Shown here piece by piece: positions 50,635 through 53,600 of a stretch of DNA of 64,000 nt (the stretch's first letter is position 1; each line of letters opens with the position of its first letter). Source of the stretch: Pegea sp. RAD2-039 (Eukaryota > Chordata > Thaliacea > Salpida > Salpidae); assembly GCA_034620365.1 (NCBI GenBank), contig JAQGEQ010000071.1, positions 4,712,001-4,776,000 of the forward strand. The letters are read 5' to 3'. A program made the position numbers and the translations under genes. Under the pieces are notes generated by a model that was not told the DNA's origin, searched no databases, and saw only the letters and a program-made list of their open reading frames with translations.

Positions 50635-53600
50635 TCAATTTCGAAGGGCGGAGTTTTCTGAACGGTGACTGTGTGTGTTTTTCCAAACACCGTCAGTTGA
50701 CTTTCGCCAAACTCTAGTTTCTTCACTTTGGACGGTTACCGAAGATCCACTTCTGTGCGACAAATATAAGTGATTACGTCAAAAGTAAGACTAATATATT
50801 GAAGATAGATTTTGATAAATTGACTTCTGAACTTTAGAAAGATGAGCTTAAAATGAGTATTCTATAAGCAGTCGATTGTTGATTAGTTCATTTATCCTTT
50901 TTAAATCACTATTTGGATTATCTGAAAGCTGAGTTTTAAATTATGTGTTTTAATGAAACCGCACAGATTTGGTGGTTAAATGATTTGTTATAAAATCATT
51001 AGAAAATATAAAAACAATTATAAAGTATAAGATTATGTAAAAAAGATATTCAAATAAACTACTAAATATCCCTATTTTGGATTTAAAACATTTAAAAAAA
51101 CTTTGCTAAAAACATCATTAAAAAAATAAATATTTAGTTTACTTTTGAGTAGAGTTAAATAAAAGTAAAATAAGTCAATATTTAAATAGCTGCTTAATGA
51201 TATTGAGTTAATCTTTACAATTGTCAGTTAATGAAGGTTTTACGAGCAACAAGTTTTATTAAAAACATCCTACATATAGTCAATTTTAAAATGATTGAAG
51301 CTAATAGAAAACTCATCAAAATTGTTATGAAGTATGGTTTTATGTTAAAACTAAATCATAAAGATGTTTAAACATAAAAATCGCTGCTTTTTTCGAACAA
51401 ATTTGCGTGAAATAAGCAAAATGTAAATCATAACAGATATTTGATAATTGTAAATTTAAATAATTATTTTGTGACAACTTAGATTGATAATGAAATTTAT
51501 TAAAGTTTACTTAAATGAGTTGTAAATTAAATCTAGTCTATAAAATGTCAATAAATCATAAAAATTTTTAACTTGTTAATTACTTTATGCATATAATCTA
51601 TGCATACTTACCCATTTAAACAGTAAGTCAAACATGTATATGCAATATAAGCAGAATCGTCGCTCATGTATACAACATGTGGTGAGTATATGATACTCTT
51701 TCGGTCCAAGTGAGATTGGTTTACTACAACAAAATTACCACTGAATTTAATACTCTTAACACCTATAATTACTTCAAAATAATTAGATTTATGTTTAGAA
51801 TTATCAACTGCTTTTCATATGATTTTCTAACTTTTATATGTTCCTATTTTGATGTATTTGCTAGTTTAGTATTTTTAATTCAATAATTATAGCTTTAATA
51901 ATTTTAGGATAATTTTTTTTATCAAAAAATTTGTGTTCAAAACAAATGGTTTTGTGAATACATTCATAAAAAGTTAAAATTTCTATTTACATGATAGATG
52001 ACAACCATAAAAAAGTTTTATTCATTTGGTTTACTTATAATTTTGTTCTTATCATTAATAATCTTGATATTTACTTCAAAGCAAGTTTGGTAAAAGTTGT
52101 CATTAAAAGCATCCAAATAAAATTGAAAGAAATATCATAATTGAAAAGGGTAAGTAGTTAAATATAAGCTCAAATATTTCAAGTAAACTTTGATTTTGTT
52201 TTTAAACTTTAAAATTTACTTTTAACAGAAATATCTTTTGTTTATATTTGCAATAATCTATAAATTATTTTCAGGTAAAATAGAGAAATTAGAAAATAAG
52301 TTTAATCAATATTAATTAGGATCTTACTGAAGTCAAGTTGAAACCTTTGGTATTCTGTTCCTCGCATCAGGTTACCGACTAAACCAGGATCGAAACAAGT
52401 GTAGTCGGGCGAGCAAAGAGCCGAATATGTTTCAAAATTGCCATTATTCATTGCTTGATGTAGTTTCTCAGTGAGTTTAATAATTTCCATCTTTTTGGTT
52501 GCTAGTTGTAATATATCAATAAATATATATAAAAAGAAACTAATAAAAGATCTAAATTTCTAGTTTGGTTGCTTGCATGATGATCTAACAGAGATTTTTT
52601 GGGGAATCAATACAGAAATCTTCCGTCAAATGATCTTTAGCTGGTTGTTAATATCAGAAACTTAAAAAAATGTTTTTCTTATTTTCAATCTTTCAATAAA
52701 CTCTTAAACTCATCCATGAAACTCTCTAAAATACAACTTTAATAACTGAAAGTTTGATAACAGCTTGTAACCAAACGAGAAATGTAATGTTTCTTGACAC
52801 GCTTCGTGTATTTCATACAAAGAACAATAATCACTGACAAAAAACAAAATATTTCTTCAACTAAAGCTTTCATCTATCTATAGCTTTGACTAATTTCTAG
52901 ACTTGCTACGATTTTTAGATCTTTTCGAAGATGGTGATCTATTTCTAGGACGTTTATTACCTGAATCATCATGGTCCGACTCATTTGAAGGCTGAAAAAC
53001 AAATAATAAAATGAAAGAGAGAAGAAATTGAAAGCAATTATGATGGTAGGCGGTCAACTTCAAACCAATTAGTTGTTATTTTCTCTAAAATTAAATTTGC
53101 TCAAATAAAGTGGATTGTATAATAAGCTCAGTAATTTAGATTTAAATTAAATTTATTAGATTCTTATTTTAAGCAATCATTAAATGTAGCAAGGAATGAC
53201 ATCAATTGACTTTACTGATGATAATAATTATCAATTAAAGAATTTTGATAACAACTATAGTCAGGTTGTTGAAGCAGTCAAGACCTTTAGCTGAAGGGTC
53301 AAAAAACCAGCTGATTAATAAAAGGCATTCAAGTATTAGATGAAAAAACTTTTAACGTTTTGATTACTGACATGCAGATTAGTTAGTGATTGATTGAACT
53401 GATGATGAAGTAAGTGGAAACGCTACAGGTGAAGCTTTTCATACTCTCCAGTGCATTGAACAAAACAATCTAGTGAAGATCACTAAAGCATGCAGGAGGT
53501 AGGTGATGTTATAAATTTTGAGTGATTTTACTCAAAGATCTTATTTCAATTGTTGTCAGGAAATGATATAGAGATGCAAATAAAAAGTGAGCTGTAAAGA

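Follow-up and report, generated by a model that had tools for sequence, protein, structure and literature searches.

CaMKII Gene in the Window

The window, which is the whole stretch of 64,000 nucleotides that was analysed (Pegea sp. RAD2-039, contig JAQGEQ010000071.1), comes from a compact, AT-rich animal genome of 105.7 Mb in 387 contigs, and its GC content is about 24–36% when taken by 4-kb piece. The minus strand of the window carries a gene for CaMKII, a memory-related kinase. The kinase, regulatory, linker and hub exons of this gene were placed using reading frame, splice sites and alignment. The CaM-kinase catalytic domain was confirmed by phmmer, where the joined protein from PENLLL onward, with the N-lobe left out, matched 8uso chain A at 2.2e-124 and 6w4o chain A at 2e-123.

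The first kinase exon in the window lies at 63219..63291, its start being taken as the base after TTAG, and further N-lobe exons lie upstream of it, beyond the window end. It is followed by four kinase exons aligned to solved CaMKIIs, at 60359..60461 (ending in PRWFG), 60077..60160 (ending in WACG), 59878..59972 and 58072..58194 (from FTSPEWDTV to HHPWIS). The regulatory exon at 57692..57775 contains the equivalent of Thr286 in HRQQTV, where HRQQTVD aligns to HRQETVD and HRQDTVD, and the calmodulin-binding exon lies at 54771..54810.

The linker begins with a 41-nt exon at 54421..54461 (phase 1 in, phase 0 out), which aligns to GGKSGGNKKSDGVK of CaMKII alpha 6w4o and joins in frame to the exon that starts at 52991. 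The latter, at 52961..52991, is an acidic, v6-like linker exon (phase 0 in, phase 1 out), whose SDHDDS aligns to IEDEDT of the same CaMKII alpha structure. Between these two exons, the 54-nt segment at 53662..53715 is likely to be a cassette exon of phase 0-0, which we take to resemble the vertebrate EPQTTV linker exon. Its donor, CTG/GTGAAC, is modest at 1.2 bits in the nine-donor model described below, and an exon scan gave the exon as 60 nt instead, ending at 53656 with the donor AAC/GTTCTT.

The association (hub) domain follows downstream in three open exons, all of which fall inside the alignment to solved CaMKIIs. The first, at 52328..52501 and ending in QLDF, matches Pfam PF08332 with an E value of 3.3e-10, over the cut-off; the second lies at 51612..51723, and the last, at 50635..50752, includes the stop codon. 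The second hub exon diverges from the solved hubs, and its codon-use score is slightly negative. The original prediction that the segment under study belongs to a CaMKII linker exon is borne out, and this exon adjoins the hub.

A search of the genome with the hub family gave one match, the first hub exon of this gene itself; a divergent second hub gene could be missed by this search, since the two other hub exons of the gene gave no match either. The regulatory segment likewise found its sole genome match at the CaMKII gene itself (E 0.008). The genome apparently has one CaMKII hub gene.

On the plus strand of the window, there is an aldo/keto reductase in one open frame at 46909-47901 (PF00248, E 3e-52), and the reading frame at 1737-3176 has a Ser/Asn-rich N-terminal part with C2H2 zinc fingers at its end, which by eye is odd-skipped-like. 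The single-frame ORF of 250 aa at 43531-44283 has a very high content of Ser, Arg and Lys with repeated SRKS; it is protamine- or H1-like by eye, and there was no Pfam match at an E value of 0.01.

Calmodulin-Binding Segment

Compared with GAILTTMLATRNFS of the two aligned solved CaMKIIs, the exon at 54771-54810 is one residue shorter at the Thr305/306 pair, and the frame is kept. Since the two differ by exactly one codon, a mere mistake in base calling is an unlikely cause. Upstream of this pair, across the exons at 54771-54810 and 57692-57775, Trp stands in place of the usual Phe, and the Trp and Met of the calmodulin-binding segment are 1-14 apart by manual count. From the sequence, the altered spacing could affect calmodulin binding and inhibitory autophosphorylation, and this change may matter more than the tail described in the following sections.

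Three Possible Ends of the Last Linker Exon

On the minus strand, the acceptor ...TTTTTCAG precedes the exon start at 52991. Three ends of this exon are possible in a common frame. The donor CAG/GTAATA has its G at 52960, and a second GT, ATC/GTAGCA, lies 51 nt further on at 52909; both are of phase 1 and keep the frame when joined to the hub exon at 52501. If neither is used, reading carries on in the same frame over 23 codons until a TAG at 52892-52890. The coordinates, the phases and the common frame of the three ends had been predicted from the sequence, and all of them hold at base level in scripted splicing. The extension including the stop, at 52890..52960, is the proposed tail of a composite terminal exon, and the second donor would add the 51-nt part at 52910..52960.

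The 19-residue peptide that had been proposed as the extra segment is in frame and rich in Lys, Arg and Ser as claimed, but it crosses the second donor; its last four residues, RSKS, can therefore occur only in the stop-terminated form. The NLS-like signal attributed to the extension is present as KRPR, which fits the K-K/R-X-K/R motif. Both KRPR and KRSK come before the donor at 52909, and the basic run passes this donor and continues as RSKSRN to the stop. The complete tail would then hold KRPR and three R-x-x-S sites, counted by eye. When the genome was searched with the 19-residue peptide, no match was returned, and the peptide's own locus was missed too, so that this search carries no information.

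Splice Sites and Poly(A) Signal

The strength of the donors was scored with a model built from the nine other checked donors of the CaMKII gene, whose leave-one-out scores range from 2.2 to 10.3 bits. The donor at 52960 scores 5.7 bits, which is within the range of the nine training donors, and 4% of GTs match or beat its score in a ten-donor model. This donor is strong enough for use every time. It is possible, though less likely than the explanation preferred below, that it is in fact always used, in which case the segment beyond it would be plain intron, and its basic frame would be accidental or would stem from a signal in the RNA, for example a splicing enhancer; the score of the donor speaks for such a reading.

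The poly(A) evidence is of the same tendency. An ATTAAA at 52738..52743, which lies past the stop within the intron, is a possible poly(A) signal, but AATAAA or ATTAAA appears in 67% of shuffles; the hexamer is no better than expected by chance, and it is therefore uninformative. The acceptor at 52501 has 9 pyrimidines in 17 positions against 8-14 over 12 acceptors, which is low and not unusual.

Coding Character of the Extension

The open length of the extension is ordinary, as plain intron would have it: of the 11 other in-frame read-throughs scored in the introns of the CaMKII gene, 2 exceed it with 26 and 31 codons, and a frame open over 23 codons follows 16% of 7092 GTs in non-coding sequence. 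The non-coding sequence used for the counts of GTs and windows was nearby and roughly masked.

The amino-acid make-up of the extension has no match in this local non-coding sequence and argues against plain intron. Lys, Arg and Ser account for 16 of the 23 residues, a number reached by none of 1168 open non-coding extensions, where the K/R/S figures here and below are not clean p-values because these residues were picked after the peptide was known. As many Lys and Arg as in the extension occur in 3 of the 1168, and 15 K/R/S with 9 K/R occur in none of 28344 open non-coding windows of 20 residues. When 283 kb with coding sequence included was considered, 16 K/R/S were reached by 11 of 5337 open extensions, namely the site itself, seven in the ORF at 43531-44283 and three in locus L022 (two inside a 296-aa ORF and one unclassified). 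Among 20000 dinucleotide shuffles of the segment, 3351 were open, and only two were both open and as rich in K/R/S. The make-up of the tail is thus beyond what base or dinucleotide content explains, which is a further point against plain intron.

The codon log-odds of the segment is +8.7 bits, as high as which none of 1858 open windows in the introns of the gene score; with the tested intron held out of training, none of 1862 open intron windows match the segment. The score is negative in 10 of the 11 other read-throughs, and the exception is a single codon. The training set comprised 3027 codons in eight stretches of 22 long ORFs, from which the K/R/S-rich ORFs and, among others, those of L016 and L014 were left out. 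In a broader sample drawn from 18 loci, with coding sequence included and the window, L016 and L022 excluded, 13% of 69403 open windows reach the codon score of the segment. At locus L016 (G000:C1:3700001-3710000), long ORFs of several frames run across repeats such as SNPSTTVSAT.

The synonymous-codon part of the score is −4.8 bits, which is lower than in any of the 12 exons scored (−2.5 to +1.9) and favours plain intron. The GC content of the segment, 33%, is below that of all 11 exons scored (36–48%) and above that of the introns (19–30%). The view that the extension looks coding, as had been suggested for it, is consequently upheld in part: the K/R/S-rich make-up agrees with it, but the choice of synonymous codons does not, and the coding signal lies in the amino-acid make-up only. 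Judged from these statistics, the evidence that the extension is, or was, translated is good but not decisive.

Candidate Hub-Less Kinase

The best explanation of these results, to which we assign a probability of about 0.43, would be that the gene makes a kinase that lacks the hub and carries a basic, RS-like tail by means of a composite terminal exon, alongside the default assembling CaMKII. With the exon at 52991-52961 the linker ends and the hub follows, and the default splicing from 52960 to 52501 would give a standard assembling CaMKII. If splicing bypasses the donor at 52960 and the transcript terminates within the intron, the exon would become a composite terminal exon, and translation would extend 22 codons past it as far as the TAG at 52890. 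The predicted product would retain the kinase together with the regulatory segment of the Thr286 type and the calmodulin-binding site but would be without the hub, and its C-terminus would be the basic, RS-like tail with KRPR. That the stop-terminated form is used, that it is a monomer and that it is targeted to the nucleus are the conditional parts of this scheme.

The use of the donor at 52909 instead would add 17 residues with the junction residue changed from Ala to Pro, which would give an NLS-bearing subunit of the holoenzyme like alpha-B or delta-B. This donor is of phase 1 and in frame to 52501, KRPR and KRSK precede it, and vertebrate linker inserts with an NLS exist (PMC5882894). Nevertheless, such an insert is improbable: ATC/GTAGCA scores 0.08 bits in the nine-donor model, 45% of GTs score as well in the ten-donor model, which is the level of a random GT, and a mere insert would have no need of the basic residues that extend beyond the donor to the stop. 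Because the donor at 52960 is good and that at 52909 is random-like, the default is expected to be the hub-bearing kinase, and the in-frame insert is ranked after the stop-terminated form. The latter, which the original prediction had placed second to the insert, fits the sequence better also because the basic run goes to the stop. An origin of the segment from a repeat or a mobile element was dismissed, since the 102-bp stretch matches only itself in the genome.

The behavior of the candidate hub-less kinase may be considered on the basis of known CaMKII localization. According to PMC5882894, a truncated CaMKII consisting of residues 1-316, without the association domain, is more nuclear in cells, the holoenzyme is mostly excluded from the nucleus by its size, and phosphorylation beside the vertebrate NLS stops nuclear entry. 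From these three observations, we infer a nuclear monomer that would follow calcium but would not have the memory which autophosphorylation between subunits gives to the holoenzyme. A variant found in a patient, R396stop, is described as disrupting the holoenzyme (PMC8506966).

Comparison with Known CaMKII Variants

The equivalence of the segment to the nuclear insert of vertebrate alpha-B and delta-B, which had been proposed in the original prediction, did not stand. In vertebrates, the nuclear exon v3N, which codes for Lys-Arg-Lys, has its place between v2 and v4 (PMC5882894), whereas the present segment comes after the v6-like exon and borders the hub. The pattern AAR-(CGN/AGR)-AAR for Lys-Arg-Lys had no match in the introns 54420-53717 and 53661-52993, which flank the EPQ exon. 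The position and this lack of a match both indicate that the segment is not v3N. What is common to the vertebrate alpha-B, gamma-A and delta-B forms described there and to the present gene is a basic segment in the linker region that is open to alternative use; v3N is a separate alternative exon in that description, whereas the segment here is a 3' extension of the v6-like exon that can run to a stop.

The closest in kind are mammalian beta-H and beta-eH, which are splice variants without part of the hub and with impaired 12-mer formation, and which are more nuclear in Cos-7 when expressed without an alpha hub, according to PMC5882894. To the knowledge of its authors, they are the first known mammalian splice variants missing a part of the hub. 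As described there, only part of the hub is missing from beta-H and beta-eH, whereas the predicted product here would lack the whole hub and gain a basic tail. Alpha-KAP in the same source is also a partial product of a CaMKII gene, but it is the opposite half, i.e., the association domain without the kinase, made from an alternative promoter.

Among invertebrates, the planthopper CaMKII has several alternative linker exons, where two inserts are homologous to those of Drosophila (PMC6627886). The planthopper isoforms obtained retain the association domain, unlike the proposed hub-less form. In the accessible text of that paper, the words 'truncated' and 'premature' are absent, and 'nuclear' appears once, of a receptor. 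Among the literature matches listed, with subscription papers mostly outside them, there was neither a natural CaMKII isoform without the whole hub nor an invertebrate nuclear splice form of CaMKII.

Implications

The assembly of 12 subunits is thought to be necessary for the decoding of calcium frequency by CaMKII. The full scheme, in which the one hub-bearing gene found would give, besides the assembling kinase, a nuclear monomer that has an RS tail in place of the hub and resembles CaMKIV, in a lineage with the one-residue loss at Thr305/306, is somewhat unlikely on present sequence evidence. If it is true, a wholly hub-less form of the nuclear type would be made by the choice at one exon end, which would offer a direct test of what the holoenzyme adds, and nuclear calcium signalling would become addressable in an animal that seems to have a single CaMKII gene with a hub.
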